64,000 nt of DNA from Zobellia uliginosa (GTDB taxonomy: Bacteria > Bacteroidota > Bacteroidia > Flavobacteriales > Flavobacteriaceae): positions 180,275 through 244,274 of the forward strand of contig NZ_FTOB01000002.1 of NCBI RefSeq assembly GCF_900156625.1. The letters run 5' to 3'. Position numbers and translations under genes: made by a program. Of this stretch, positions 15,119-44,208 are shown piece by piece (within the stretch, counting starts at the first letter, position 1; every line of letters starts with the position of its first letter). The notes beneath the pieces were generated by a model. It did no database searches and was not told the origin of the DNA. It saw only the letters and a program-made list of their open reading frames with translations.

Positions 15119-15844
15119 TTACACACTTTGTTGTAATTCCAATTCAGGGATTTCGTCATAAGTTCGTCCGTTAAGTACTCGACCATTTTTCTTTTTATTT
15201 TTTCCGCCCCATTGTTTGAAGAAAAACGCAACATCTGCTTCTTCACATTGTTCTTGAATGTCAATAACCCAATCAGAATCCATTGGTCTTGGCGTATGTC
15301 CACTTTCTCCACCAACAATAACCCAATCAATTTTATCTAAATTAAGGTTTGGTAAAGGTCCGATTAAAGGTTCAAGAGATAAAAATTTCACTCTCGCATT
15401 TGTTTTTCTTAAAAAATCAATTCTATTTTCAACTTTCTGTTCTTCGACCGAAACACCCATCCAAATATTATGTGACCATTTTAATTCCTTGTGAACTTCC
15501 AGAAGTCTTTCCGCTCGTTTTGTCAAAACTTGAAAAACATGCCTTGGATTTTCATTCATTACATTAAAAACCTTCTTGATAAACTCTAAAGGAATGTCTT
15601 CATGAAATAAATCACTCATTGAATTCACAAAAACTATTTTGGCTTTTTTCCAAGTATATGGAACTTTCAATTCTTTTTCGTGAGTTCTGACTTTAAAATT
15701 GTCCTTGTATTTATCAACCCCCATTGCTTTTAAGCGTTTAGACATAATTTCTGCATAGCAAAATTTGCATCCTTGCGATACTTTGGAACAGCCTGTTGTA
15801 GGATTCCAAGTCATTTCTGTCCATTCTATGCTTGATTGTGCCAT
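15119..15844 (-). CDS. Phage Gp37/Gp68-like (DUF5131) three-Cys-motif protein
   Basis: This 241-residue protein matches the phage Gp37/Gp68 (DUF5131) family: it starts SSIEWTEMTWNPTTGC and has the SLEPLIGPL, VIVGGESGH and FFFKQWGG segments. The three cysteines C19, C26 and C29 (CX6CX2C) give the family its name and probably hold a metal or an iron-sulfur cluster, since the fold resembles radical-SAM proteins. No enzymatic reaction is established. The upstream tcmP gene ends one base before this ATG, so the two are translationally coupled. AT-rich composition differs visibly from the PUL genes, which suggests acquisition. Confidence 0.88.
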   Translation of the reverse strand: MAQSSIEWTEMTWNPTTGCSKVSQGCKFCYAEIMSKRLKAMGVDKYKDNFKVRTHEKELKVPYTWKKAKIVFVNSMSDLFHEDIPLEFIKKVFNVMNENPRHVFQVLTKRAERLLEVHKELKWSHNIWMGVSVEEQKVENRIDFLRKTNARVKFLSLEPLIGPLPNLNLDKIDWVIVGGESGHTPRPMDSDWVIDIQEQCEEADVAFFFKQWGGKNKKKNGRVLNGRTYDEIPELELQQSV

Positions 15845-16702
15845 TTAATTTGAGGTGTTATATTTTTCTATTATGTCGTTTGCAATCTTTCGAGCGGTTT
15901 TATTATTTGAAACCATATAAAAATGAAACATTATTGAGTTAGATTTATTTTTGAGAATATATGGATTTGTTACGAATGTAAATAATTCTTTAAGTCTTTT
16001 CTGATATAATTCAGCTGACCTTTCTATTGCTTTTTCTTCTTTGTTTGTAACAACTTCATCTCCAAATAAAGTAGGCACAATTGTTTGTGAGTAAAAATAA
16101 TCTAGGATTTCTTTTTTGGGCATTCCGAGAAAAGTCTCCAATCTCATTATCCACGCATCAGAAATTCGACCATCTTTTTTCAATAATCTATTAACACCCA
16201 TTCCAGTTGGAACTAATATCCAAGCATCAACTTTTAATTCTTGTAGAGCAATTAAAGATTTCCAATTCACTTGCATTCCACACGGGTCGATATAAGCTAA
16301 AACTCTATACTTTTTTCCTTTTTGAGTTTTAAGAAATTCTGACATAGATTGTATTTTCTCGTTACAATCAGTATTAACTACATTTATTGTTTTGTGGTTG
16401 TAGTTTTGCACCACTTTTTCTATTAATTCATCTGCTTTTTCGATTTCCTTTTCAACAAAATAGTATCTATCAAAAGGTCTTGGCTCATCAATATCTAAAA
16501 TTCGTTTCGTTGCACCAATTATTATTTTTTGATTTTCATCATTCCCTTTTTTTATAAATCCACTACCTGCAAATCCATCAAAGTAGAGTAGTTTCCAACC
16601 AAATCTATCTGCAAATTTGTCCATTATTGTCAGATACGCTTTCGCATATTCAACAAGTATTTCTATTTTGGCTTCAGTCCAATCTCCTCCGAATTTATTC
16701 AT
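15845..16702 (-). CDS. tcmP: Three-Cys-motif partner protein TcmP
   Basis: TcmP is the fixed partner of the Gp37/Gp68-like three-Cys protein. The 285-residue protein has the family's N-terminus (GGDWTEAKIEILVEYAKAYL). It also has two motifs like those of Rossmann methyltransferases: YFDGFAGSG (glycine-rich loop) and AYIDPCGM (DPPY-like position). A nucleic-acid-modifying role is inferred from those motifs; nothing is proven for the family as far as I know. It abuts its partner gene directly. A 130-base AT-rich block that is also found 5' of two other accessory genes lies just upstream. Confidence 0.88.
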   Translation of the reverse strand: MNKFGGDWTEAKIEILVEYAKAYLTIMDKFADRFGWKLLYFDGFAGSGFIKKGNDENQKIIIGATKRILDIDEPRPFDRYYFVEKEIEKADELIEKVVQNYNHKTINVVNTDCNEKIQSMSEFLKTQKGKKYRVLAYIDPCGMQVNWKSLIALQELKVDAWILVPTGMGVNRLLKKDGRISDAWIMRLETFLGMPKKEILDYFYSQTIVPTLFGDEVVTNKEEKAIERSAELYQKRLKELFTFVTNPYILKNKSNSIMFHFYMVSNNKTARKIANDIIEKYNTSN

Positions 16703-19341: not shown

Positions 19342-19520
19342 GGCAGTTATATGAAGGGGAAGCGCGAGAATACCGTAGGCCCTGTTTTCAGAACGTTGAT
19401 AAAGTTCATGGGACACGGAAAATAAACACCATAGGAATGGCACAGGCCAACAAGGTGATGCAACTCTCATCTGCTAAAACTACACTTATGGGTAGAATAG
19501 TATTCTTTTCTAAGTACTAA
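19342..19520 (+). pseudogene. Remnant of an IS1182-type transposase C-terminus
   Basis: Translation of 19360-19422 gives KRENTVGPVFRTLIKFMGHG. After a one-base frame change at the A run near 19420 it gives KINTIGMAQANKVM, then a stop near 19518. This pattern matches what I recall of the C-terminal end of Bacteroidota IS1182-family transposases (TVEPVFGTL..FMGM..VNT.G..QANK). Only about 60 residues survive and they are frameshifted. It fills the 326-base gap left of the ThiF-like gene and marks an old insertion at the left edge of the peptide-system region. Confidence 0.6.
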
Positions 19521-19546
19521 TTTTGTGAATCAAACCATATAAAGGA

Positions 19547-20302
19547 ATGCAAGAACGATATCAACGAAATAGGATATATATTGATGATAAAGAGCAAGAA
19601 ATTGTTAAAGATTATCCGATAATCCTGGCCGGAAGTGGAATAGGGAGTGTAATTGCCGAATGTGCCTTGCGTTTAGGGTTTGAGAATATCACCATTATAG
19701 ATGGCGACAAGGTAGAACGATCTAATTTGAATCGGCAAAACTATACCGAAGACGATATTTCTTCTTCGAAAGTAGAGGCTATAAAGTCCAGATTAAAGGC
19801 TATTAATAATGAAGCTAATATCAAGGTTTACAACAGTTTTATAACAGAAGCCAATGTAGAGGAATTTGTAAAGGGCCATAAAGTAGCCATTAATGCGCTA
19901 GATTTTACGTCGGATATTCCATTGCAATTTGATAAAGTTTGTCAAGAAAACAATATTCCGGTAATTCATCCGTACAATTTAGGGTGGGGCGGACTTGTTA
20001 CGGTAATTGCACCCAATAGTATAGGTTTATCTGTCATTGCAAAACCAGATGAGAAATTCAATGAGGTAAATATGGTCGAATACATGTCAAGTTATATGAG
20101 GTTCTGGGGAAACCCTCAAGATTGGATAGATGAGATCATAGAGAAATACAAAAGCGAAAAAGAAAGTCTGCCACCACCACAACTTTCAATTGCTTCTTGG
20201 AAAGTTGCCGCTATGTGCACCCATATTCTTTTTAATATTGCTACGGGAAAACCGGTCAAAAAATTTCCTGAATTTTATTTGTCGACCATATTAAATTCTT
20301 GA
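19547..20302 (+). CDS. ThiF/E1-like adenylating enzyme
   Basis: A 251-residue protein of the ThiF/MoeB/E1 superfamily, which adenylates the C-terminal carboxylate of a small protein or peptide with ATP. The nucleotide-binding loop is ILAGSGIGSVIAE, followed by ITIIDGDKVERSNLNRQ (Asp and Arg of the ATP site) and the helix with SSKVEAIKSRL. The paired Cys-x-x-Cys zinc sites of some relatives are absent. The C-terminal ~80 residues (with DWIDEIIEKYKSEKES) do not match ThiF/MoeB and may hold the substrate. MccB, which modifies microcin C7, is the best known peptide-directed member. It is separate from the downstream operon (convergent LuxR gene between), so membership in the peptide system is only inferred. 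Confidence 0.8.
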   Translation: MQERYQRNRIYIDDKEQEIVKDYPIILAGSGIGSVIAECALRLGFENITIIDGDKVERSNLNRQNYTEDDISSSKVEAIKSRLKAINNEANIKVYNSFITEANVEEFVKGHKVAINALDFTSDIPLQFDKVCQENNIPVIHPYNLGWGGLVTVIAPNSIGLSVIAKPDEKFNEVNMVEYMSSYMRFWGNPQDWIDEIIEKYKSEKESLPPPQLSIASWKVAAMCTHILFNIATGKPVKKFPEFYLSTILNS

Positions 20303-20339
20303 ATATAGGTAATCTTATATTTGCCCCGACCTCAAAACC

Positions 20340-21098
20340 TTAAATGAGCTTATTATTGGTGGCATACATGATAGCTTCCGATATGTTGGTCACTTCTAAT
20401 TTGTCGAATAACTTTCTTCTGTGAAATTTTACCGTATCGGGCGATACGTAAATTGATTCGGCTATCTCGTTTATAGTTAAACCTCTAGTCGACAATTGCA
20501 ATATTTCTTTTTCCCGGGATGAGAGCTTTATTTTTTCATCCGCTTTCCAGAAGTCACCCTCTAGGTTATACTTGAAAATTTTATGATTTCCCTTTTTATA
20601 AATTTTAATATTCCCCGCTTGTCGTTCGGCCGATAAGGATACAATACATACGGCTTTCCATATTTTGCCGTTTGCGGTCAAAAATATTGGGGTCAATTTT
20701 TGATTTATTAGAATGATTTTTCCTTCTTGGTTTTTTATGTGGAAGTCATATGAAATGGTATGTTCCTTGCGTTCTTCTAAAGGAATTCTGTCATAAAACT
20801 CGAAGCCCACCTTGTTGATTTTAATGAGTAAATCCAAATCGGACTTAACTACATACTTGAAGTAGAAAGCATATCCCATCTCCTTGATTTCTTCTGCCGT
20901 ATGGCCACAAAGGAACAAGGGATTGTCCGAGACGTATTCAAACCCTCTTTTTTGATAATCAATTACATATATACTTTTGTAGGTGGCTCTTGAGAAGGCT
21001 TTTATAGCTTCTAAATAATCTAAGGCTTGTCCTTGGTTTTCTTTTGGGATTTCACCAACTGAATTCTTAAAGGAAAAGAAATCTTTCATGTCAGTCAT
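20340..21098 (-). CDS. PAS-like sensor with LuxR-type DNA-binding domain
   Basis: A 252-residue one-protein regulator. Residues about 30-160 look like a PAS fold (VIDYQKRGFEYVSDNPLFLCG, KNQEGKIILINQKLTPIF). The last ~65 residues are a GerE/LuxR helix-turn-helix (LSSREKEILQLSTRGLTINEIAESIYVSPDTVKFHRRKLFDKL). There is no classical autoinducer-binding domain. This architecture is frequent in Flavobacteriia. It is divergent from the acyltransferase gene at 21261, and the shared 162-base intergenic region holds an imperfect palindrome. It is therefore the likely local regulator of the peptide operon. Met4 (21089) is an alternative start. Confidence 0.88.
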   Translation of the reverse strand: MTDMKDFFSFKNSVGEIPKENQGQALDYLEAIKAFSRATYKSIYVIDYQKRGFEYVSDNPLFLCGHTAEEIKEMGYAFYFKYVVKSDLDLLIKINKVGFEFYDRIPLEERKEHTISYDFHIKNQEGKIILINQKLTPIFLTANGKIWKAVCIVSLSAERQAGNIKIYKKGNHKIFKYNLEGDFWKADEKIKLSSREKEILQLSTRGLTINEIAESIYVSPDTVKFHRRKLFDKLEVTNISEAIMYATNNKLI

Positions 21099-21158
21099 AG
21101 AGTCGGTTTGGTGTAGGTTTTTGTGGTTATAAATATAGCTTTTTTCTTATCATTTTGA

Positions 21159-21180
21159 AAACTACACTTTTGTATAGTTT
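21159..21180. promoter_or_regulatory. Candidate LuxR-type operator (imperfect palindrome)
   Basis: AAACTACAC-TTTT-GTATAGTTT is a 22-base sequence with 9-base arms matching at 8 positions. It lies 81 bases before the acyltransferase start and 61 bases from the regulator start. A weaker copy of its left half (AAACTACCATTTTGTGTAAAC) follows at 21196-21216. The position between divergent genes suggests binding by the LuxR-type regulator; no experimental support. Confidence 0.5.
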
Positions 21181-21260
21181 CAGATAATCAACTAAAAACT
21201 ACCATTTTGTGTAAACAAACATTACTGAATGCCTAATAGATTTGGAAGTAAAACAAGAAT

Positions 21261-21944
21261 ATGATACATCCAAAGAACTATTTAGAAAGATTAGGGGCAG
21301 ATTGTCTATACGACTTGGCCAAGTTTGTGGTCAATGAAAATTTCAAGCACCACACCAGTAGCGTTTATCCAGAAAACTATACAAAGGAAATAGGATCTAT
21401 CTTGAAAGAAGAGAAAGATTATTTCAACAATGCCCAGATTTTTGTTTCTAAGGATGAGGACAATTCCATAATAGGATCGATCAGGGTATTACGGTGGAAT
21501 TATACGGACGTATTGCCTATACAGAAAATATTCGGCATTAATCCATTGCTCCTAAATGGCCATTATATTAAAAGTTCCATTTGGCATATTGGCAGGTTTG
21601 CCATAAAGAAAGGGGTAAATGATATTAATTTATTTAAGAGACTTATGGTCTGCGCCATAGCCCCTATATGTCAAGATAAAAATGCCGTAGTCTATGCAGA
21701 ATGTGACAGTAAACTTTTAAGGGTAATGTTGGCGTTGGGGATCAAGGCCGTGCCTGTAGAGAAACCTCTTAATTATCTAGGCTCTGAAACTATTCCGGTG
21801 AGTATGCGGTACAACGGCCTAATCGATTTCTATAATAAGAATAGGTCTTTGGTTCCTGTAGATTTTTTAGGTTCTACCACTGCTCAGCAACTACCTAAAA
21901 GGGTAGTTTCCCAACCTCTTCAGCATAACTACTCTTTAGTGTAG
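21261..21944 (+). CDS. FeeM/LuxI-like N-acyltransferase (GNAT fold)
   Basis: A 227-residue protein resembling the N-acyl amino acid synthase (FeeM) and autoinducer synthase group, GNAT-fold enzymes that transfer an acyl chain from acyl-ACP to an amino group. The supporting signature is SIIGSIRVLRWNYTDVLPIQ followed by WHIGRFAIKKGVND, which matches the family pattern of a strand with Arg, an LP turn, and an E/IsRFAV-type strand. A Leu-rich helix (RLMVCAIAPIC) comes next. The ~40-residue tail is low in complexity and may be flexible. Located directly upstream of two peptide precursor genes on the same strand. It could acylate the peptides, an amino acid, or make a signal for the adjacent LuxR protein. 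Confidence 0.65.
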   Translation: MIHPKNYLERLGADCLYDLAKFVVNENFKHHTSSVYPENYTKEIGSILKEEKDYFNNAQIFVSKDEDNSIIGSIRVLRWNYTDVLPIQKIFGINPLLLNGHYIKSSIWHIGRFAIKKGVNDINLFKRLMVCAIAPICQDKNAVVYAECDSKLLRVMLALGIKAVPVEKPLNYLGSETIPVSMRYNGLIDFYNKNRSLVPVDFLGSTTAQQLPKRVVSQPLQHNYSLV

Positions 21945-22094
21945 AGAAGTACAAAAGACAAACATATAGTTTTATGCTAATAAAATAAATAAGCATATCA
22001 AGATATAACGCATACTCTTGGCCGAGAGATAGACCGAATAGCAATTAATGTCTTAAAACTAAGATTGGATCTAATAATTGTAATTTTTTTAAAA

Positions 22095-22244
22095 ATGAAA
22101 AATTCAAACCCAGAGAAATTTTTAGATACTCAGGAATTATCAGCTCTTGAGAATCAAACATTAAAAGGAGGTACTTCAATGATCGAATCGGTCGAAGAAG
22201 AAGACAAAAAGAAAAAAGAGAAAAAAGTAACCGTTGAAAAGTAA
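22095..22244 (+). CDS. Double-glycine precursor peptide 1
   Basis: A 49-residue peptide too short for usual ORF callers. Residues 1-26 form a leader ending in LSALENQTLKGG, the double-glycine motif cut by C39 peptidases (consensus LS..EL..I.GG). The predicted core is 23 residues, starting TSMIESVEEED and ending in a Lys/Glu-rich tail with KVTVEK. It has no Cys. The adjacent peptide 2 has exactly the same first 23 residues, although seven of those codons differ by silent changes. That shows the leader is under protein-level selection and is a real gene. A C39-type ABC exporter is encoded 2 kb downstream. Function (antibacterial or signal) unknown. Confidence 0.88.
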   Translation: MKNSNPEKFLDTQELSALENQTLKGGTSMIESVEEEDKKKKEKKVTVEK

Positions 22245-22249
22245 TAATT

Positions 22250-22402
22250 ATGAAAAATTCAAACCCAGAGAAATTTTTAGACACTCAAGAACTTTCGGCT
22301 CTTGAAAACCAAACATTGACAGGTGGTAGTTCTATGGTAGAATCACTTGAAGATGCAGGTAACAAAGACAAAGAAAAGAAAAAAGAAGTTGTTGTAAAGT
22401 AA
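22250..22402 (+). CDS. Double-glycine precursor peptide 2
   Basis: A 50-residue paralogue of peptide 1, starting 5 bases after its stop. Leader residues 1-23 are identical, then Thr replaces Lys24 and Gly-Gly follows at 25-26. The predicted 24-residue core starts SSMVESLEDAG and ends with a Lys-rich VVVK. Core residues shared with peptide 1 are [ST]SM[IV]ES[VL]E[DE], so the N-terminal third of the core is conserved and the middle diverges. It also lacks Cys. A perfect hairpin comes 4 bases after its stop codon and would let the two peptides be made in excess over the enzymes downstream. Confidence 0.88.
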   Translation: MKNSNPEKFLDTQELSALENQTLTGGSSMVESLEDAGNKDKEKKKEVVVK

Positions 22403-22406
22403 GTCT

Positions 22407-22440
22407 TAATAAGGTGTCGGTGTATGCCGACACCTTATTA
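22407..22440 (+). terminator. Hairpin attenuator between precursor peptides and enzymes
   Basis: The arms TAATAAGGTGTCGG (22407-22420) and CCGACACCTTATTA (22427-22440) form a perfect 14-bp stem with a 6-base loop. No long T run follows, so partial termination or mRNA-end protection of the peptide transcript is more likely than full termination. This is the usual arrangement in bacteriocin operons. Confidence 0.8.
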
Positions 22441-22464
22441 TATATGGAAAAATGATAATATAAA

Positions 22465-23772
22465 ATGATGGAAGATACTAAAAAAGCATTGACCAAAGAC
22501 TGGTGGCTATTATTTATAGAAGAAAATTTTTCTTTCACTGAGACTAAAGTATTTAAAGACGTTCTCTCTGAATCTTTGCAGGAAAATTTATATAAAGGAG
22601 TGAAAGAGATGTTGCAATCAAGAATCAACCGTCTTGATATTTCAAATGGTTTTAGACTATATCAAAAGGGAGAGGAAATTGGTGATTCCAAGGTCCGAAA
22701 CCTTATAAGGGAAAACAAATTAGGCAGCCAAGAATCAATTGAATCGTATTGCAAAAGGATATTTGGGGAAAATTATGGCATTATCACCAATTATGGTGAG
22801 CGTCATTCGGATATTTTAGCTGAAAACGTTTTAGAGGCGATACAACCTCTTTTTGATATTATTGGTATTCCTCCTTGGGGAGTGGAACTTACAACCTTTA
22901 TAGGTAATTATGGGTGGACTCCCTTGGGGATACATACGGACCAAAGAGGGGAAAATGTTTTGCATTTCCATCTAGGCCCTGGTAAAAAAACAATGTACAC
23001 TTGGAATGAAGATGTCTATAAAGAGGTAGGTAAGGGCGTTTCAAACAATAAAGATGTAGAGCCCTTGCTCGAATACGCCCAAAAATATGAGTTTGGCCGA
23101 GGTGATCTTTACTATATGCCTTGGAATAAGCACCATATAGGTTTTTCCGGCGACTTTTCTATAGGGGTTACATTATGGTTTAATAATCCGACTAAATGCT
23201 CTTTTTCAAAACTAATGATCGAGTCGATCAAAAACATGTTTTTAAAAGACGATATGAATATTATAGAAAGTCAATTGGATTACCTGAACAACGAACAAAC
23301 GTTTAACGACTTCATCGGCACTTTAAATATTTCTTCCAAAACATTAAACGAACCCTTAGTAGACTTTTTGCAGTATACCTATAAAGAATATAAAAAATGT
23401 CTGTTGAGTAATGGCGGTTGGCAAAATATTCCCTTAAGGCATCACAAGAAGGTAGAGAACACGAATCATTGTTTTCCAGAATTTGAATTCAAAAAAATTG
23501 TCGGTAGCAATGTCTTCAAAATTACACATGAGAAAGAGGAAGATCGCCTATTGGTTTATGTTAGGGGGGTACGGCTATCCTTTAAGTATTTTGAAGGCCT
23601 GGTAAAGATTATTGATATGGTCAATACCGGTAAGGTAATTGAAGTTCAAGATGTTATAGAAGAAATTGACGACTTGCCAAAAGATGTGGTGATTTATTTT
23701 TTAAAAACCTTGGTAAATAATAGAGGCCTTAAAATTCAAGAGGCCCCGTTAGAGGAAATTCAATTTCAATAG
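22465..23772 (+). CDS. JmjC/cupin-like Fe(II)/2-oxoglutarate oxygenase, probable peptide-tailoring enzyme
   Basis: A 435-residue protein whose middle part has the double-stranded beta-helix oxygenase signature. H157-x-D159 (GIHTDQRGENVLHFHLGPGK) supplies two iron ligands, and GDLYYMPWNKHHIG supplies the distal His (H223 or H224). The GD-LY-P-H pattern is that of JmjC/cupin-4 ribosomal oxygenases (RoxA/YcfD, Mina53), which hydroxylate protein side chains. A ~200-residue C-terminal part (with YVRGVRLSFKYFEGLVKIID) may be a winged-helix/substrate-binding region, as in ribosomal oxygenases. It lies between the precursors and the exporter, so hydroxylation of the peptides is inferred. Cores offer Lys, Asp, Glu, Asn and Thr as targets. 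Confidence 0.75.
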   Translation: MMEDTKKALTKDWWLLFIEENFSFTETKVFKDVLSESLQENLYKGVKEMLQSRINRLDISNGFRLYQKGEEIGDSKVRNLIRENKLGSQESIESYCKRIFGENYGIITNYGERHSDILAENVLEAIQPLFDIIGIPPWGVELTTFIGNYGWTPLGIHTDQRGENVLHFHLGPGKKTMYTWNEDVYKEVGKGVSNNKDVEPLLEYAQKYEFGRGDLYYMPWNKHHIGFSGDFSIGVTLWFNNPTKCSFSKLMIESIKNMFLKDDMNIIESQLDYLNNEQTFNDFIGTLNISSKTLNEPLVDFLQYTYKEYKKCLLSNGGWQNIPLRHHKKVENTNHCFPEFEFKKIVGSNVFKITHEKEEDRLLVYVRGVRLSFKYFEGLVKIIDMVNTGKVIEVQDVIEEIDDLPKDVVIYFLKTLVNNRGLKIQEAPLEEIQFQ

Positions 23773-23824
23773 GCCTTTAACCTTCGATTTGTTGAATACG
23801 TACTGTGAAACTAAATCTAATAAA

Positions 23825-24328
23825 ATGAATTGCATTGAATTATATGAAACGTATCGGATTAAAAAAAAGAAAGACTATAAATATGTGTTCCAGACAAACG
23901 AAGGTGTGATTTATGAATTTAGTTTTAATAGGTCCGGTATACATTATAACTCTTGCTCAACAAATAAAAATATTCTAGAGCTTACCTTGAAATGTAGCTC
24001 AGTTTGTCCTAAAAAGGATTATAGAACCTTGACAACAATTGTTCATTTTGTTAAGGAGTTCTTGATAGAATATGATGCATTTTATTTACAAACGCATAAT
24101 CAGATCGAACACAAAAATACAAGAACGAAAAAACGGCGAGGATTTTCTAGGTTGAAACTTTGGACACGCATTTCAAATCGATACTTTGAGCAGTGCGATT
24201 TCCTGATGAGTCCAAATCTAAATGATTCTTATACACAGGATATACCTTGTCTCTTAATAAAAAAAGAGGCCAAGCATTATCGACAAATAGTGAGCAATTT
24301 TCATAAGTATTGTAATACGGAATTTTAA
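23825..24328 (+). CDS. Small protein resembling DUF6169
   Basis: A 167-residue protein from the ATG at 23825 (MNCIELYETY); a longer start at 23789 exists but adds twelve residues that look unrelated. No signal peptide. It has the order of short segments I associate with DUF6169: an N-terminal beta part (YKYVFQTNEGVIYEFSF), a helix (LTTIVHFVKEFLIEYDAFYLQ), a basic stretch (RTKKRRGFSRLKLWTRI) and a late LLIKKEAKHYRQIV strand-helix. It has no assigned function. Its stop overlaps into the region immediately before the exporter ATG (adjacent, no gap). This tight coupling suggests it assists the exporter or acts on the precursor. Confidence 0.6.
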   Translation: MNCIELYETYRIKKKKDYKYVFQTNEGVIYEFSFNRSGIHYNSCSTNKNILELTLKCSSVCPKKDYRTLTTIVHFVKEFLIEYDAFYLQTHNQIEHKNTRTKKRRGFSRLKLWTRISNRYFEQCDFLMSPNLNDSYTQDIPCLLIKKEAKHYRQIVSNFHKYCNTEF

Positions 24329-26524
24329 ATGATAGGGTATAAAAACAGAATAAAACTTGTACGTCAGCACGATTTAATGGATTGTGGACCAGCTTCTTTG
24401 AGTATGGTGACCTATTTCTATGGCAATAAATTCCCATTGCATTACCTAAGGGAATTATGCCAAATCGGAAAGGATGGGGTTTCTATGTCGGGAATAATTC
24501 ATGCCGCTAAAAAAATAGGAATGGAAACGTATTCCACCCGGTTGAATTTAGATCTATTGGTTAAAAAATTTACCAAGCCTTGTATTCTATATTGGAATAA
24601 AAATCACTTTCTTGTATTGGAATCCATTAGTAATAAGGGAGGTAATGTTAATTTTCATATTGCAGATCCCGCTCATGGAAAAGTGGTCTTGTCAGAAAAA
24701 GATTTTAAAGAACCATGGCTGAAAGGGGGGCAATCTGGTGTTGCTTTATTCTTGTCTCCGACCCATGATTTTTTCTTAAAGAAAAACAATAGCAATGTAA
24801 AAAATCATTTCAAGACCATCGTAAATTTTTTAAAGCCTTATAAGAAAAAGATATTGGTTTTGTCTTTTTTGATACTGTTGGGTAGTGCATTCAGTGTGAC
24901 ATTGCCATTTTTAACAGAAGCGTTGATAGATTATGGGGTTACTCCAAAAAACCTGAATTATATAAGCCTTATTCTTCTTGCCCAGTTATTTGTCTTTATA
25001 GGGATTATGACCATTAATATCTTAAGAAATTGGTTTACCTTAATTATCGGCACAAAACTCAGTGTAGATATTGTTTATTCGTATCTAGACAAGGTACTTA
25101 AACTTCCATTGAGTTTTTTCGACACAAAAAACTCTGGCGATTTTAATCAGAGAATACAAGATAATATTAAAGTAGAAAGATTCCTCACTTCTGACAGTAT
25201 CTTAACGGTCTTTTCCGCCTTATTACTGTTAGTGTATTCGGGTATTCTATTTCATTATGGCACTTCGCTTTTCTTAACTTATATAGGTCTGACTCTCGTT
25301 TCGGTCTATTGGTCTTATTACTGGTTAAAAAAGAGAGAGGTAATAGACTATAAAATATTTCTTGCCAGATCCGAAAATCAAGAAGCTATTTATGAGTTTT
25401 ACAACGGCATTAGAGAAATGAAGCTCAACCAATATGAGAGTTATAAAAAAAATCAATGGGTTGAATTACAAAACAACTTGCTACAGGCGAATATCAAATC
25501 ATTAAAAATTGAGCAGTTTCAGTCTATCGGATTTACCTTTTTCAACCAGCTCAAAAATATTTTAGTCACATTTTTGGCAGCTAATTATGTGGTGAAAGAC
25601 ATTATGACCCTTGGGGCTTTGTTAAGTGTTTCATATATCATTGGTCAAATGAATTCGCCAGTACATCAATTATTATCGTTTTTCAGATCTCAACAAGATG
25701 CCTTTTTAAGTTTTAATAGATTAAGCGAGGTATATACCCAAGAAAATGAAGAAAAGGAATCCGATAAAAAACTTGACCCCGAAAAAACTCCTGTAGATAT
25801 TAAAATACAAAATGTCAATTTCAAATATAATGTACTTTCCCATAAATATATTCTTCAAGATATCGATCTAACCATACCACGAGGAAAGATTACGGCCATT
25901 GTAGGGCATAGTGGAAGTGGAAAAACAACGTTGATGAAATTACTATTGAAGTTTTTTCCTCCCTTATCGGGGAAAATCTTTTATGGTTTAGATGAAATAA
26001 ATGGATTGTCTTCGCAAAGTATTAGGGAAAATTCAGGAATAGTGATGCAAGATGGCTATATATTCAATGATACCATTGAAAGGAATATAGCACTGAAAGA
26101 TAAAATAGTCGATAAAGAAAAATTAGAAAAGGCACTTGGGGCGGTTAATCTGTTAGGCTTCGTCAATTCATTGGCCCTAAAGGAACATACCAAAATAGGT
26201 TCGGGAGGGAATGATCTTTCGGGCGGTCAAAAACAAAGGATACTAATTGCACGGGCAATTTATAAAAATCCTAAATATATATTCTTGGATGAAGCCACTT
26301 CAGCTTTAGATGCTACCAATGAAAAAGAAGTACATAATAATTTGCAGAAGCTGTTTAAGGATAAAACGGTGGTTATAATAGCACATCGTTTAAGCACTGT
26401 TCAAAACGCCGATCAGATTATTGTTTTATCAGAAGGAAAAATGGTAGAACAAGGGACGCATACAGAATTAATAGACAAAAAAGAATTTTATTACACACTG
26501 GTTAAAGATCAATTAAATATATAA
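24329..26524 (+). CDS. C39-peptidase-containing ABC exporter (PCAT)
   Basis: A 731-residue peptidase-containing ABC transporter that removes double-glycine leaders and exports the core peptide. The C39 domain (1-130) has Q13, catalytic C19 in LMDCGPAS, H93 in NKNHFLVL and D113 in IADPAHG. A six-helix membrane domain covers about 160-440. The ATPase has Walker A GHSGSGKTT (526-534), the signature LSGGQ (630-634), and Walker B FLDEATSALD. All catalytic residues are present. It starts right after the preceding stop. In Gram-negative bacteria such exporters normally work with an HlyD-type adaptor, and none is encoded here. The partner outer-membrane gene is instead of TonB-receptor type. Confidence 0.95.
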   Translation: MIGYKNRIKLVRQHDLMDCGPASLSMVTYFYGNKFPLHYLRELCQIGKDGVSMSGIIHAAKKIGMETYSTRLNLDLLVKKFTKPCILYWNKNHFLVLESISNKGGNVNFHIADPAHGKVVLSEKDFKEPWLKGGQSGVALFLSPTHDFFLKKNNSNVKNHFKTIVNFLKPYKKKILVLSFLILLGSAFSVTLPFLTEALIDYGVTPKNLNYISLILLAQLFVFIGIMTINILRNWFTLIIGTKLSVDIVYSYLDKVLKLPLSFFDTKNSGDFNQRIQDNIKVERFLTSDSILTVFSALLLLVYSGILFHYGTSLFLTYIGLTLVSVYWSYYWLKKREVIDYKIFLARSENQEAIYEFYNGIREMKLNQYESYKKNQWVELQNNLLQANIKSLKIEQFQSIGFTFFNQLKNILVTFLAANYVVKDIMTLGALLSVSYIIGQMNSPVHQLLSFFRSQQDAFLSFNRLSEVYTQENEEKESDKKLDPEKTPVDIKIQNVNFKYNVLSHKYILQDIDLTIPRGKITAIVGHSGSGKTTLMKLLLKFFPPLSGKIFYGLDEINGLSSQSIRENSGIVMQDGYIFNDTIERNIALKDKIVDKEKLEKALGAVNLLGFVNSLALKEHTKIGSGGNDLSGGQKQRILIARAIYKNPKYIFLDEATSALDATNEKEVHNNLQKLFKDKTVVIIAHRLSTVQNADQIIVLSEGKMVEQGTHTELIDKKEFYYTLVKDQLNI

Positions 26525-26529
26525 GAATA

Positions 26530-26862
26530 ATGGGATTTAAAACATTGACAATCATTTTATTAGTTTTAGTTTTTTTGAGTTGTAGTACAACTAACCCTGT
26601 CTCATCGTCTAAGTATGAAACAGTATTCTGTACAAGCATAGACAATAGTGAGTATGCTTCGATCTATCGGATTCTTAGAGATAATTTTAATGATTTTCCA
26701 AAGAAAAGGGGTAAGAAAGTTACCTATGTAAAAAACAATATAGATTATTCGTTTCGAATAAGCTTGAAAAATAAACGCTTTAAAATGAAATATAGTAGCA
26801 ATAAGGGATACAATGACCAAATAAGCGCAATGAAGTCGAAGATTGAAAATATGGTGAAGTAA
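26530..26862 (+). CDS. Small lipoprotein of the peptide operon
   Basis: A 110-residue protein with a lipoprotein signal (VLVFLSCSTTN, Cys ~18). The remainder has alternating polar and hydrophobic segments and a Lys-rich middle (FPKKRGKKVTYVKNN). No family was recognised. It starts 5 bases after the exporter stop and ends 10 bases before the TonB-type receptor, so it belongs to the same transcript. An immunity or receptor-accessory role is possible, given that lipoproteins are frequent immunity factors for exported peptides, but nothing in the sequence proves it. Confidence 0.75.
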   Translation: MGFKTLTIILLVLVFLSCSTTNPVSSSKYETVFCTSIDNSEYASIYRILRDNFNDFPKKRGKKVTYVKNNIDYSFRISLKNKRFKMKYSSNKGYNDQISAMKSKIENMVK

Positions 26863-26872
26863 GGAGAAATTT

Positions 26873-29242
26873 ATGAGAATTAGTATAATACTTTGTGTTT
26901 TGTTGCATACGGGATTGTTATATTCCCAAAATAGCATTTTAGGTAAGGTTATAGATCAAACGGGAGAGCCATTACCCTATGCCAACATCATCTTATATCA
27001 TAATGGAAATACTGATGAATTGGTAACGGGTACGGTAAGTGATGACAAAGGGGAATATGTCTTTTTAGATGTTTCAAATGGAACTTATCTGTTGGAGGTT
27101 TCTGTCCTAGGGTTTAAAACCGAAAAATCAAATCCCTTTACACTTTCCGATAAAAACCAAGATGTAAGGTTTAATTTTACTTTAAAGGAGGAGGCCCAAG
27201 CCTTGAACGAGGTAGTCGTGAAAAGCAATCGCCCGGTAATCCGACAAACCGCGGAAAAATTGATAGTTGATTTAGAGCAATCCGAAATGGTAAGTTCCAA
27301 CTTACAGGATGTCATGAAAAAAGTACCAGGGATTATCGTTACCAATGGCAACATTACTTATGGAGGGCAACAAGGCGTGACCATTTTGATCAATGGCAAA
27401 ACGACCGAGTATATGGATATTTCATCCTTGTTGCGCGACCTCCCCGCAGATAATATCGCAAAGGTTGAATTGGTACAACAACCTGGTGCCGAGTTTGACG
27501 CAGAGGGATCAGGTCCATTGATCAATATCATCCTTAAAAAAAATGTAAGGCTGGGCACGAATGGAAACCTTAAACTGTATTCGGGATATGACAACCGACC
27601 TGAGTATGGGGTGAGTGGTTCGATTGCCAGTTATAAGAACAAGATCAATTGGCAATTAGGTGGCGGTTATAGAAAATCGGCGTGGAGAGAAGACCTCTTT
27701 ATAACCAGAAGGATCAATGGGGAGGTTTATGATCAATCGACCATTTCACCATACAATCCAAAAACGTATAGATTCAATGGGGGATTGGACTATTACATAA
27801 ATGAGCATCACACCATAGGGTTTGGAACACGGTTTATTCATACCGATTCCGATAGGATTGCATCTAACAGTACAGAAATCATTGAAGACTCGTCATCGGA
27901 AACCTTGCTCACTGAAAATAGCTTTGACCGTAATAGGAAAACCTATAACATAAACCCGTACTATAAGTTCGAAGATGAGCAAAACAAGTTCATTCTAGAT
28001 TTTGATTATGTTGATTATAATAACGATAATGTTAATGATTTATATCAGCTCGGGCAGAGTGAGATATCATACGACGACCAACGGTATTTTCAGAATGGAA
28101 AATATCGGATACTGACTTATAAGGGAGACTATAAACGTACTTTTGGGGAAGGTTCCAATTGGATGTTCGGAACTAAATATTCAAGGGTTTCCACTGATAG
28201 TGACTTGAACTCTTTTTTCCGGAACACTGATGGTAATTTCATTTTGGATGCTGATCAAAGCAATGGTTTTTTAGTGGATGAAGATATCTTGGCCATATAT
28301 TCCAAGTTGGTAAAAAAATGGGAAAAATGGTCGTTTTCCGGTGGGTTGCGATGGGAAAACAGTAATACGAAGGGAACATCTACAAACCCCAATGAGGTAA
28401 GAAGTAGGCGAATTTCAAAATTATTTCCTAGTGCCAGTATCGATAGAAAAATCAATGACAAATTGGGGGCTAACCTGTCGTATAGCTATCGAATTTTAAG
28501 GCCTTCCTATAATTCCCTAAATGCATTTGTATATTATTACGACCCCTATACCTTTGAGCAGGGAAACCCGAATTTAAAACCTGAATTCACCAATAGTTTT
28601 CAATTTAATTTGACTTATGCCAATCAACCTTTTTTTAGTATAGCATATAAAAATACAGAGGATGCCTTGTTCGAAATTATATCGCAGAACGATGTCACGG
28701 CCCAAACCTCTCGGTCGGTAATCAACCTTGCTAAAAGGGAGAATTGGAGCTTTAGGGGTTTTGCTCCGGTCGACTTTCTTCATGGCTTGGACGGTTATGC
28801 CGGAATTATCGTAAACTATAATAAATATGCTTCGGAGAGTTTGACCCCAAAACTCGATTTGGATAAGTGGAGTTTTACGTGGTATACAAACCTGGAGTAT
28901 AGCCTGCCTTGGGATATCAATTCAGAATTGACGGGATACTATACCACTGGGGGACTACAAGGGCAAATAGAACACGATTGGTTAGCGGGACTCAGTTTTG
29001 CCCTCGGTAAAAAGTTTATGGATGACAAGCTTAAAATAAATTTGGGAATTGAAGAGATTTTGAATCGAAAATTTATAGGTAGTATTAACTATGATAATAT
29101 TGATGCCGATATTATAAGTGATTGGTCCCGTCAAAATGTCTATTTTCAGTTGACATACAATTTTGGTTCTAATTTTAATAAAGAAAAGGCCGAAAGGAAT
29201 CCTTCCGAAGAGGAGCAAGACCGAATAAAGGATAATAATTGA
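26873..29242 (+). CDS. TonB-type outer-membrane receptor (OMP beta-barrel 3 family) of the peptide operon
   Basis: A 789-residue outer-membrane protein with a signal peptide (cleavage near LLYSQ). A carboxypeptidase-regulatory-like domain (SILGKVIDQTGEPLPYANI) and a plug (TAEKLIVDLEQSEMV, SNLQDVMKKVPGI, INGKTTEYM) come first, followed by a large barrel. The barrel has the RPSYNSLN / FEQGNPNLKPEFTN motif of the Bacteroidota OMP_b-brl_3 group. The C-terminus is unusual: the last strand (YFQLTYNFGSNFN) is followed by a charged ~20-residue tail. It is the last gene of the operon, followed by a terminator. It could export or take back the mature peptide, or be its target; direction of transport is not decided by sequence. 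Confidence 0.9.
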   Translation: MRISIILCVLLHTGLLYSQNSILGKVIDQTGEPLPYANIILYHNGNTDELVTGTVSDDKGEYVFLDVSNGTYLLEVSVLGFKTEKSNPFTLSDKNQDVRFNFTLKEEAQALNEVVVKSNRPVIRQTAEKLIVDLEQSEMVSSNLQDVMKKVPGIIVTNGNITYGGQQGVTILINGKTTEYMDISSLLRDLPADNIAKVELVQQPGAEFDAEGSGPLINIILKKNVRLGTNGNLKLYSGYDNRPEYGVSGSIASYKNKINWQLGGGYRKSAWREDLFITRRINGEVYDQSTISPYNPKTYRFNGGLDYYINEHHTIGFGTRFIHTDSDRIASNSTEIIEDSSSETLLTENSFDRNRKTYNINPYYKFEDEQNKFILDFDYVDYNNDNVNDLYQLGQSEISYDDQRYFQNGKYRILTYKGDYKRTFGEGSNWMFGTKYSRVSTDSDLNSFFRNTDGNFILDADQSNGFLVDEDILAIYSKLVKKWEKWSFSGGLRWENSNTKGTSTNPNEVRSRRISKLFPSASIDRKINDKLGANLSYSYRILRPSYNSLNAFVYYYDPYTFEQGNPNLKPEFTNSFQFNLTYANQPFFSIAYKNTEDALFEIISQNDVTAQTSRSVINLAKRENWSFRGFAPVDFLHGLDGYAGIIVNYNKYASESLTPKLDLDKWSFTWYTNLEYSLPWDINSELTGYYTTGGLQGQIEHDWLAGLSFALGKKFMDDKLKINLGIEEILNRKFIGSINYDNIDADIISDWSRQNVYFQLTYNFGSNFNKEKAERNPSEEEQDRIKDNN

Positions 29243-32720: not shown

Positions 32721-34694
32721 TTATTCCTTTTTAAGGTCTTTGTTTGACCAGAGTTTTTTCCATTGCCATAACCAAATATGTTTTCTTGTAGCAGAATAAT
32801 CCATAATATTTTGCGTAGCTTTCTTTTTGTAACCATAGGTTGCGCTATTATCAAAACTATGTCTTAACCCCATACAATGTAATAACTCGTGTGTTACAGT
32901 TGCCTTACGTTTACCAGCAAACATAATAGCTGATTGAGAGTTGAAGCCGTTAGCATATCCTGCTAGTTTTACAATTTTCACTACTTTATCCGTTCTACCA
33001 CCTGTATCTCCAAAGAAGAACACTTTAAAATAGTCCTTATATTTTGGCAGTTCTTTGTTTAAGGTCATTTCCATATACTCGGCTAAACTATTTCCTCCTT
33101 TATTATGATATTTGTTAAGTATTTTTTTACCATTTAGATCTAATAATGTATAACTTTTGTTAAAATCGGGATATTTTGGTTTTTTAGTTGTTGGATCTAA
33201 TTCAGTCAACTTAAAATCAATTTCGTCTAATTCTAGTTTGGTATAGGCTTGTTTTAAATAACGCGCTAACATCTCCTTTTCAGGTTTTCCTGTCTTGTTT
33301 GTTGTATTACCTTTTAATTTTATACCACTATATAGTTCAGTTTCAATTTTTACAAAAACTACCTGAACTTTTTTACGATTGGCTTTATCATTTTTTATGA
33401 TGTTAAGTTGTCCTAATTGGCGTTTTTGGTACATTACTTTTATAACTTGGTCTGTACTAAACTCTTTAATACACTCAATGGTTAAATGGTCGTCCAACCT
33501 TTTTTTTCCTTTGCTTTGTGCGGGTATTTTTTCAGTATTTAGTTTAAAAAGTGTTTTGTCGTACTCAAAAGTTAAATCTAGCTTTTTAGGGTTTTTAATT
33601 GTCTCTATCTGTAAACTTAATATCTGCGTTTCTTTTGGGTATATGGTCAACCAACTTTGTATGTATTCATATGCGCTACCATCTGGGTTTTTATGCCAAT
33701 CTAGAGGTATGGTATCGTAAATATCACATTTTAATTCTTTGTATTTAAAGTCTGTTTTATATTTGGTAAATTTATTTACGCCCTTTATGGATTTGTTTGT
33801 GCCTAAGATGTCTTTATAGGTCAGTTTGTCGTCCTTGTCCTTTTTATCTCGCATAAAATCAAAACCGTATTCGCCATCGTAATTTTTGCTTGGTCTAAAA
33901 TCTACAATTACCTTTGGAGGAGGTATAACTTGCAGAACATTACTTTCTTTATTGGTTCCCTTATAGCTTACCTTGGCAATTAAACCGTCTATTTCTGCAA
34001 TTCTAAAGTCATCCCATTCTTCTTTGATTTTTAGGGAGCTTATTTGCACAGTTCCTTCATCGGTTAAATATTCGGTAAATGTTAATGATTTCGTGCCCTC
34101 TTCGAACTCGGTACCATCTTCTTTTTCAATGATGATTTCAACGCTACCGCCTTCGGCGTTCGTTACTTTGACCTCCAATGCTACTTTTTCTTGGTAGGTG
34201 GTCTCTTCAATTGTTTCTCCTTCAACAGTTTTCCACTTTACCGATGCCAATTTTGGTTTTGGCACAATGGATTCGGGCGTTATGTTATTTGCCAAATTAG
34301 AAAGGTCGGTTATCTTCCATGGTTTTTCGAATACCATATAGCCTATTCGTAGTATGCCTGGGGAGAAAACGTAGGTATCGATATTGATAGAATGCCCATC
34401 ATAATTTCTTTGGTAGTTTACTATATAGGTGTCAAAGAACTCATAATCGATAAGTTTTGACGTTCCATCGCGGTTATAAAACCGAATATGACCGTTGCAC
34501 ATAGTGTCGGGCGCAACGGCTAGCCTCAATAAATCAGTATTGTCATCTGCTTCTAAGATAACGGTAAATAATCCTCCATGTGGAACTGAAGTTGGCTTAA
34601 AAGTATTGGAGTTGACCCTTTGGTAGAATTGAATATTGGTGTCTAAAATGTTTCTTTTTCTCCCATTAATAGAAAGTTTTGCTAAAAAGCTCAT
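32721..34694 (-). CDS. Evolved TssD (Hcp) fused to a metzincin metalloprotease, T6SS effector
   Basis: This 657-residue protein begins with a complete Bacteroidota-type TssD/Hcp tube domain (1 to ~130: MSFLAKLSINGRKRNILD, PHGGLFTVILEADDNTDLL, IRFYNRDG). An Ig-like segment follows (about 150-260), then an unassigned region. The C-terminal domain has the zinc-protease motif H602-E-L-L-H606-C-M-G-L-R-H612 and a Met-turn at M631 (NIMDYS), the hallmarks of metzincins. No other T6SS genes lie nearby, so it must use a secretion apparatus encoded elsewhere. As part of the injected Hcp tube it would deliver a protease into a neighbour cell. The AT-rich coding sequence and its repeat-flanked position suggest horizontal transfer. 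Confidence 0.9.
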   Translation of the reverse strand: MSFLAKLSINGRKRNILDTNIQFYQRVNSNTFKPTSVPHGGLFTVILEADDNTDLLRLAVAPDTMCNGHIRFYNRDGTSKLIDYEFFDTYIVNYQRNYDGHSINIDTYVFSPGILRIGYMVFEKPWKITDLSNLANNITPESIVPKPKLASVKWKTVEGETIEETTYQEKVALEVKVTNAEGGSVEIIIEKEDGTEFEEGTKSLTFTEYLTDEGTVQISSLKIKEEWDDFRIAEIDGLIAKVSYKGTNKESNVLQVIPPPKVIVDFRPSKNYDGEYGFDFMRDKKDKDDKLTYKDILGTNKSIKGVNKFTKYKTDFKYKELKCDIYDTIPLDWHKNPDGSAYEYIQSWLTIYPKETQILSLQIETIKNPKKLDLTFEYDKTLFKLNTEKIPAQSKGKKRLDDHLTIECIKEFSTDQVIKVMYQKRQLGQLNIIKNDKANRKKVQVVFVKIETELYSGIKLKGNTTNKTGKPEKEMLARYLKQAYTKLELDEIDFKLTELDPTTKKPKYPDFNKSYTLLDLNGKKILNKYHNKGGNSLAEYMEMTLNKELPKYKDYFKVFFFGDTGGRTDKVVKIVKLAGYANGFNSQSAIMFAGKRKATVTHELLHCMGLRHSFDNSATYGYKKKATQNIMDYSATRKHIWLWQWKKLWSNKDLKKE

Positions 34695-40696: not shown

Positions 40697-40725
40697 GAGG
40701 TATAGCAGGCATTATGTTATACCTC
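40697..40725. terminator. Palindrome spanning the subtilase stop codon
   Basis: GAGGTATA (40697-40704) pairs with TATACCTC (40718-40725) across 13 bases. The right arm overlaps the last codons and stop of the subtilase gene. It could be a terminator or the edge of a repeat unit; there is no T run. Confidence 0.45.
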
Positions 40726-43227: not shown

Positions 43228-43230
43228 AGA

Positions 43231-44208
43231 TTATTGTTTTCGCTTATCGAGAGAAGTCAAAAGAGACGATACGGCAATTTTACTTTTACCCATAATTATC
43301 ATTTCCTTTATAGCTTCTTCGCAAGCTCCAACAATATCAGAGTAGCTCAACCCAATGGCTTCTTTTGCAATTTTGTCAAGAGAAGTTCTTGTTGATAGTG
43401 AAAAACCAGATAGATTTTTTTTCAACACTTTTTTTATTTCTCCGACTTCTGGTAATGGGTATCTAATTATATCATCAAATCTTCTGAACAGTGCTTTGTC
43501 TAATAATTCTGGTAAGTTAGTCGCGGCAATTATAATGCTATTAGACTGATCTTTTTCGATGTTAATCAGAAAACTATTTAAAACTCTTTTAATTTCTCCT
43601 ACATCCTGTCCCTGATCACGCTGTGCTCCAATCGAATCAAATTCGTCAAACAAATAAACCCCTCTGTAATCTTCCATCGCATCAAATATCATTCTCAGTT
43701 TGGCAATTGATTCCCCCATAAACTTAGACATAAGGCCATCTAATCGAATTATAAAAACTGGAAGACCTAATTCTCCTGCCAAAGCTTGAGCGGTCATTGT
43801 TTTTCCACATCCTGGCAATCCGGTCAATAATAATTTTCTTTTTGGGCTCAGGTTATGCTGTCTTAGAAGATCTATCTTTCTTTGTTCTTGAATAACACGA
43901 TTCAAAGATTCACGTACTTGCTTATCTAAAACCATATCATTGAGCTTGATCTTGGGTTGAAATACCTCAATGAGTTCATTTAATTCTCTTTTTGGTTTAG
44001 AGATAGAAATGGTTCTAGCTTTATCTGAAAAAGAATTGGAACGTTCTTTTTTTGCTCGCTCAATTAGATTTTTAAGTTCTTGAGCAAAAGTAGTATGCCC
44101 CTTTCTAGCTTCAGAGGCTGCAATTTGCATAGCAGTAGCAAAGAATCGAGGTTCATCCCCATCCCCAAAAGATTTGATTAAACTTTTTATTTGTTCTGCT
44201 GCTGCCAT
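43231..44208 (-). CDS. AAA-family ATPase, IetA-like
   Basis: A 325-residue AAA protein. The N-terminal ~100 residues are helical. Walker A is LTGLPGCGKTMTAQALAGEL, Walker B is GVYLFDEFDSIGAQRDQG (hhhhDE), followed by sensor 1 (IIIAATNLPE) and the arginine-finger region (DKALFRRFDDIIRYPLP). These are features of the classical 26S-protease/FtsH-like AAA clade, but without transmembrane or protease parts. It is the first gene of the two-gene unit with the subtilase. In the IetAS system such an ATPase partners the protease, presumably to control or feed it. The 5' flank carries AT-rich block C. Confidence 0.87.
   Translation of the reverse strand: MAAAEQIKSLIKSFGDGDEPRFFATAMQIAASEARKGHTTFAQELKNLIERAKKERSNSFSDKARTISISKPKRELNELIEVFQPKIKLNDMVLDKQVRESLNRVIQEQRKIDLLRQHNLSPKRKLLLTGLPGCGKTMTAQALAGELGLPVFIIRLDGLMSKFMGESIAKLRMIFDAMEDYRGVYLFDEFDSIGAQRDQGQDVGEIKRVLNSFLINIEKDQSNSIIIAATNLPELLDKALFRRFDDIIRYPLPEVGEIKKVLKKNLSGFSLSTRTSLDKIAKEAIGLSYSDIVGACEEAIKEMIIMGKSKIAVSSLLTSLDKRKQ

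Follow-up and report, generated by a model that had tools for sequence, protein, structure and literature searches.

A cluster at positions 19547–29242 of a 64 kb window (the whole stretch of Zobellia uliginosa contig NZ_FTOB01000002.1 that was analysed, to which all coordinates refer) encodes two short double-glycine (GG) leader peptides, a JmjC-type oxygenase and a C39 peptidase-containing exporter, beside an acyltransferase, a PAS-LuxR regulator and an E1-like enzyme. Open reading frames (ORFs) and Pfam matches bore out every gene listed in an earlier note on this DNA, in place and orientation, with the PAS-LuxR gene divergent and the E1 gene adjacent. We regard the cluster, with moderate confidence, as a system of the RiPP type (ribosomally synthesised and post-translationally modified peptides) with a borrowed control module. 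Its genes and features are as follows.

19480–19495, plus strand: E1 operator box CTACACTTATGGGTAG; -7 element TAATTTTG at 19518–19525, gap 22 bp
19547–20302, plus strand: ThiF/E1-like adenylyltransferase (PF00899, E=4e-33, 115 bits)
20340–21098, minus strand: PAS-LuxR regulator with a GerE helix-turn-helix (PF00196 GerE, E=9e-17, 61 bits; weak PAS_3)
21162–21177, plus strand: acyltransferase distal box CTACACTTTTGTATAG, in the divergent region between LuxR and acyltransferase
21199–21214, plus strand: acyltransferase proximal box CTACCATTTTGTGTAA; -7 element TAGATTTG at 21237–21244, gap 22 bp
21261–21944, plus strand: LuxI/FeeM-like acyltransferase (sub-threshold FeeM, E=0.001; Autoind_synth, E=0.01)
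21891–21906, plus strand: peptide-operon distal box CTACCTAAAAGGGTAG, inside the 3′ end of the acyltransferase gene
21929–21944, plus strand: peptide-operon proximal box CTACTCTTTAGTGTAG, overlapping the acyltransferase stop codon; -7 element TAGTTTTA (one mismatch) at 21967–21974, gap 22 bp
22095–22244, plus strand: precursor peptide A (49 aa), GG leader and core TSMIESVEEEDKKKKEKKVTVEK
22250–22402, plus strand: precursor peptide B (50 aa), GG leader and core SSMVESLEDAGNKDKEKKKEVVVK
22407–22440, plus strand: perfect 15-bp hairpin, attenuator- or terminator-like, between peptides and oxygenase (-23 kcal/mol, z=-5.9)
22465–23772, plus strand: JmjC Fe(II)/2-oxoglutarate oxygenase of the ribosomal-oxygenase type, with a C-terminal winged-helix-like region (H157, D159, H224)
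23789–24328, plus strand: DUF6169-related protein (one relative matches DUF6169, E=3e-4; the window protein itself does not)
24329–26524, plus strand: C39 peptidase-containing ATP-binding cassette exporter (PF03412, PF00664 and PF00005, all above cut-off)
26530–26862, plus strand: small lipoprotein, homologous to a small protein of several poly-Gln-type loci (hhalign probability 96.5%, E=9e-10)
26873–29242, plus strand: OMP_b-brl_3/TonB-type outer-membrane barrel with a CarboxypepD_reg domain (PF14905, E=3e-84, 284 bits)

The payload of this cluster, formed by the precursors, the JmjC oxygenase and the C39 exporter, is conserved well beyond Zobellia. GTDB species genomes were scanned with an alignment of the JmjC protein, which gave 25 named loci; searches within the same family added more, partly on the same contigs, and linkage was counted over 26 loci after removal of duplicates. 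The C39 exporter lies downstream of the JmjC gene on the same strand in 24 of the 26, the exceptions being L022, which runs into a contig end, and L041. When 3193 small ORFs were searched with a leader profile, 21 loci yielded a precursor, nearly always within 0.5 kb of the JmjC gene. Further precursors were recognised by eye in L070 and by tblastn in L016, where the leader is present and the core is N-masked; L040 and L041 encode GG peptides immediately 3′ of the JmjC gene, and the sequence of L039 starts 291 nt upstream of it. The same genes stand in the same order in unrelated genomes, so that a chance assembly is excluded. The hosts, members of the Flavobacteriales together with Pedobacter and Chitinophaga, include Tenacibaculum, Aquimarina, Chryseobacterium, Kordia, Flavobacterium and Riemerella. 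The neighbourhood singled out by the earlier note is thus conserved, and the peptides are linked to the oxygenase in relatives. Distances between JmjC proteins correlate with those between C39 exporters (Mantel r 0.79, reached in none of 2000 permutations), and core types group together on the JmjC tree, as expected if enzyme, substrate and exporter co-evolve. The JmjC gene is also duplicated in tandem alongside precursors and exporter in Chitinophaga and in Aquimarina L042. We are highly confident that the payload is one functional unit.

Several loci show variations on this unit. Tandem JmjC pairs stand by a single precursor at L033:9992-12538, L037:9968-12511 and L042:10001-12573, an arrangement that suggests division of labour or a heterodimer. 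At L040:10004-17144, from Aquimarina agarilytica, the JmjC gene and its GG peptides lie beside an ATP-grasp-like gene, possibly a graspetide hybrid. The short JmjC relatives L007, L017 and L019, which lack a C39 exporter and served as outgroup, appear to belong to a different hydroxylase system, with Asp/Asn-hydroxylase-like neighbours in L017 and L019.

The precursors combine a conserved leader with a highly variable core. In the window, the leaders of peptides A and B read MKNSNPEKFLDTQELSALENQTL[K/T]GG and differ at one residue, while the cores differ; across the family the leader follows the motif FL-x(3-4)-LS/T-x-LE/D-x(5-6)-GG. For the 35 precursors collected, the leader profile gave E-values down to 1e-17. 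Cores vary between and within loci, are of low complexity and have no common residue pattern: over the 35 precursors, K, Q, R, E, D, H and N make up 52% of residues, and Ser, Thr, Cys and aromatics are scarce. Lys/Glu cores are found in the window and in L020, L021, L022 and L044, poly-Gln cores in L005, L006, L018, L031, L038 and L043, Val-Arg/Val-Gln repeats in Chryseobacterium, a His/Asp type (HHHDHD) in Chitinophaga, and a single Cys-Lys repeat core in L020 (9662-9814). The poly-Gln loci, such as L005:9408-9581, are bacterial secreted-peptide precursors whose core consists of runs of 7 to 17 glutamines. Existing leader models miss the family: the window peptides matched neither NF038153 nor TIGR04149 at cut-off, and the L044 leader reached 10.8 bits against a cut-off of 22. 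Short encoded precursors and a linked C39 exporter make the unit a candidate RiPP system with a GG leader and C39 export.

The oxygenase was identified by structure comparison. Alone, the window protein had no Pfam match at E<=1, JmjC_2 included, and PDB sequence searches returned nothing useful; JmjC_2 (PF08007) was weakly matched by 20 of 28 family members, the best at 3e-5. The AlphaFold2 model (pLDDT, the predicted local distance difference test, 90.8) is closest in the PDB to YcfD (4ccl, E=2e-14), followed by NO66, MINA53, YxbC and FIH. Model and family alignment together contain a double-stranded beta-helix with an HxD/E...H triad, in which H157 and H224, as well as K175, are invariant and D159 occurs in at least 90% of members. 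YcfD, NO66, MINA53 and FIH are peptide side-chain hydroxylases, which makes hydroxylation of the cores the natural inference; on the strength of the predicted fold, the oxygenase probably hydroxylates precursor cores, and its C-terminal domain could bind the leader. The gene is rare, occurring in 7 of 400 same-family genomes, in none of the eight same-genus genomes searched and, among 396 genomes drawn across the phylum, only in the source genome; this rarity disfavoured a general ribosome hydroxylase, which was considered as a candidate. Another ribosomal-oxygenase-like protein (L081:11124-12386), with no homology to the window enzyme detectable by BLAST, is encoded in an NHLP cluster equipped with the PAS-LuxR/acyltransferase module.

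The promoters of the cluster share a common operator. A CTACACTTWAGTGTAG-like palindrome occurs in the divergent region next to luxR in all 26 loci, with at most 1% of shuffles as good, usually as a pair of boxes spaced 37-38 bp. Exactly 22 bp after the proximal box comes TAnnTTTG or a one-mismatch form of it; TAnnTTTG is the Bacteroidota -7 element, and exact matches to it have a background of 0.07-0.4% per position. Wherever proximal boxes were found the 22-bp spacing was kept, at 22 acyltransferase promoters, 11 in the acyltransferase 3′ end and 9 E1 promoters. The 11 in the 3′ end precede the next transcription unit, and in one of them (L073) the -7 element has two mismatches. The E1 promoters, having been left out of matrix building, provide an independent test of the operator: nine loci have the layout before E1, four E1 genes remote from the acyltransferase also fit it, and the boxes of L067 and L068 are weaker. 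A further four remote E1 genes (L094-L097) have no box immediately upstream. The third operator lies in the sequence for the acyltransferase tail, and its presence explains why this tail is conserved although the structural model shows it disordered. In the 64 kb of the window, no box outside the cluster scores above 13. Genome-wide, where boxes were counted by pattern search only, three of six matches fall in the cluster, a reversed control gave four, and the two off-cluster matches checked had no -7 element. JmjC loci without PAS-LuxR had no such box near the peptides. As far as sequence can tell, the PAS-LuxR protein very probably uses these palindromic boxes.

The acyltransferase follows a distribution of its own. 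Within the order, 25 of 398 genomes have it, and its PAS-LuxR neighbour, the most conserved protein of the set at 55-80% identity, adjoins it each time. In 15 of 23 loci the E1 gene is its neighbour; the other eight genomes all carry E1 elsewhere, mostly 9-12 kb off on the same contig; a reading of E1 as an optional extra was rejected, every acyltransferase genome checked having the gene. The earlier note had made oxygenase and acyltransferase together the mark of the class. The oxygenase keeps that place (24/26 loci), whereas the acyltransferase as co-defining enzyme is rejected on distribution: it is absent from the majority of peptide-JmjC-C39 loci, most JmjC loci lack PAS-LuxR and E1 as well, and only 3 of the 20 acyltransferase loci fetched contain JmjC. 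Elsewhere the acyltransferase lies beside class I lanthipeptide precursors and LanC-like proteins (L067, L068, L083), beside NHLP precursors or a related exporter (L072, L075-L081), beside a radical-SAM cluster (L073) and, in the remaining loci, beside other genes. The leaders near it have nothing in common, belonging to the lanthipeptide NF038153 and NHLP TIGR03793 families. Judged by this distribution, ACYLTRANSFERASE, LuxR and E1 are a module separate from the payload, and a mobile one that is also attached to lanthipeptide, NHLP and radical-SAM clusters. This separability, the operators and the hairpin at 22407–22440 were absent from the earlier note; the hairpin lies where one would be expected if precursor mRNA should exceed enzyme mRNA.

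The predicted structure of the acyltransferase (AlphaFold2 model m480a9425a1c8, pLDDT 82) has a GNAT-like fold of the acyl-homoserine lactone (AHL) synthase type. In comparison with PDB structures, LasI (1ro5, E=1.9e-8) ranked first and FeeM (2g0b, E=2.4e-8) second, about equal; PDB sequence searches gave nothing useful. Since acyltransferase, PAS-LuxR and E1 travel together and share an operator, a LuxI/LuxR-like control module describes them better. On balance, the acyltransferase more plausibly makes a signal than modifies the peptide, an assignment to which we give modest confidence.

The cluster would then work as follows. The acyltransferase together with E1 would produce an acylated small signal; PAS-LuxR would sense it and activate transcription from boxes placed like class II lux boxes, at the promoters of E1, of the acyltransferase (a positive feedback) and of the peptide operon. 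The conserved leader would mark the two precursors for recognition, the JmjC enzyme would hydroxylate side chains in the repetitive Lys/Glu core, and the C39 exporter would cleave after GG and secrete this core. Passage, immunity or uptake may be the task of the small lipoprotein and the outer-membrane barrel.

Several observations weigh against this reading. The acyltransferase falls below the Pfam cut-offs for FeeM and Autoind_synth (15.8 bits versus 24), and GNAT folds are common. The Pfam matches of PAS-LuxR include a weak PAS_3 and no AHL-binding domain (Autoind_bind), and L027 and L029 keep PAS-LuxR and its box with no acyltransferase nearby. On the payload side, the C-terminal winged-helix region is also present in ribosomal oxygenases that use no leader, and with cores as varied as Lys/Glu, Gln, Val/Arg and His/Asp a single enzyme chemistry is not obvious.

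These points bear on two other roles for the module. PAS domains often bind internal ligands, which, with the missing AHL-binding domain, would suit a LuxR-acyltransferase-E1 set that senses an internal cue (redox, oxygen or lipid) outside any cell-to-cell circuit; the pairing of synthase and regulator, their divergent arrangement and the autoinduction-type boxes fit LuxI/LuxR logic instead, and we consider the internal cue somewhat unlikely. GNAT maturases are known to attach fatty acyl groups in lipidated RiPPs, and here too the acyltransferase, with E1, might acylate the peptide at a core lysine or the new N-terminus, leaving LuxR only to regulate the cluster. Its position directly 5′ of the peptides, its usual place inside or close to peptide clusters belonging to several RiPP types, the Lys-rich cores of the window, L020 and L021 and the FeeM-like fold agree with such a role. 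Yet Lys-rich cores also occur without the acyltransferase (L022, L044), the Chryseobacterium acyltransferase loci L023, L026, L028 and L070 have Lys-free cores, and the enzyme adjoins unrelated leaders (NF038153, TIGR03793). The consistent link between acyltransferase and acceptor lysine that marks lipidated RiPPs is therefore missing. Together with a LuxR-box promoter of its own, divergent from luxR as in luxI, this makes peptide acylation unlikely.

Two further alternatives concern the product. The peptides might be secreted unmodified, like a bacteriocin or pheromone, while the substrate of the JmjC enzyme is something else, for example a ribosomal protein; the fold is indeed that of ribosomal-protein hydroxylases and the cores look chemically plain. 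We find this improbable, given that the gene is too rare for a housekeeping ribosome enzyme, is tied to precursors and exporter, and has undergone tandem duplication along with them. A metal-binding, siderophore-like hydroxylated peptide, re-imported by the outer-membrane barrel, seems very unlikely. Beta-hydroxy-Asp and beta-hydroxy-His are iron ligands, the Chitinophaga core reads HHHDHD, and a TonB-type barrel lies in or beside many loci; against this, no metal ligands are obvious in poly-Gln or Val-Arg cores, barrels of this kind also stand with lanthipeptide and radical-SAM clusters, and the promoters are marked by LuxR-type boxes.

The signal-controlled, hydroxylated peptide system therefore remains our preferred interpretation. 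Its full form, which we put forward tentatively, would join a RiPP class having a JmjC enzyme of the ribosomal-oxygenase type as primary maturase, with repeated hydroxylation of low-complexity poly-Gln, Lys, Val-Arg or His/Asp cores, to a Bacteroidota LuxI/LuxR-type quorum-sensing circuit (E1, LuxI/FeeM-like synthase, PAS-LuxR and CTACACTTWAGTGTAG boxes at a constant distance of 22 bp from the -7 element) coupled to interchangeable peptide clusters. If true, this would be a new RiPP class with an unusual maturase and cores missed by current leader models, and Bacteroidota would gain a candidate synthase-receptor-operator circuit. The operator would allow the regulons of silent peptide clusters to be predicted, and such clusters could be switched on through the synthase or its signal.

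The surroundings of the cluster have features of their own. It lies in an AT-rich island (window 16000-44000, GC content 31-41% versus 43-51% in the flanks), for which the absence of the JmjC gene from the same-genus genomes suggests horizontal gain. By eye, we also noted a protein that combines an N-terminus like TssD/Hcp with an HExxH metallopeptidase motif at its C-terminus (32721-34694, minus strand), possibly type VI secretion cargo; a subtilisin-like protease paired with an adjacent AAA ATPase (40717-44208, minus strand); and two neighbouring genes resembling a phage Gp37/Gp68-type protein and a TcmP-like partner (15119-16702, minus strand).

Among known systems, the ribosomal oxygenases YcfD, NO66 and MINA53 (JmjC_2, PF08007) share with the window enzyme the fold, the HxD...H triad and the C-terminal winged-helix region. 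The window enzyme, in contrast, is 10-13% identical to them, rare and bound to a cluster beside GG-leader peptides and an exporter, a distribution that argues against a ribosome enzyme. Closer in context are BipG and PbsQ of biphenomycin, JmjC/cupin-like tailoring enzymes that hydroxylate ornithine in a ribosomal precursor (PMC12707348, PMC12257519). Both systems link a JmjC-type enzyme to a ribosomal precursor, with hydroxylation presumed in ours; in biphenomycin the enzyme is a tailoring step beside an MNIO, a B12-radical SAM enzyme and an arginase (PMC12707348, PMC12257519), whereas here it is the sole conserved modifying enzyme in most loci, accompanied by a C39 exporter and repetitive cores. 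In the open-access literature JmjC enzymes in RiPPs were described only as biphenomycin tailoring, and no RiPP class matching the peptide-JmjC-C39 unit was found, in line with the earlier note; this leader family, these cores and a LuxI/LuxR-like Bacteroidota circuit with E1 and PAS-LuxR were not found there either, which is weak evidence of absence.

Bacteroidota class I lanthipeptide, TIGR04149 and NHLP precursors resemble ours in the GG end of the leader and in their export genes, and some carry the same control module; the JmjC-linked leaders differ in matching no model at cut-off, and their cores in lacking Ser/Thr/Cys patterns. FeeM N-acyl amino acid synthases are the second-best structural match and the best Pfam hit, below cut-off, of the acyltransferase, which is without curated membership and has a regulatory, peptide-linked context. 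To our knowledge, Bacteroidota have LuxR-type proteins but no accepted LuxI partner, and the open-access literature yielded no counter-example. With LuxI/LuxR circuits the module shares a LasI-like fold, a LuxR-type helix-turn-helix, divergent genes and a palindromic box that abuts the promoter and precedes the synthase gene; it departs from them in having PAS in place of the AHL-binding domain, an E1 partner, a Bacteroidota -7 promoter and a different box.

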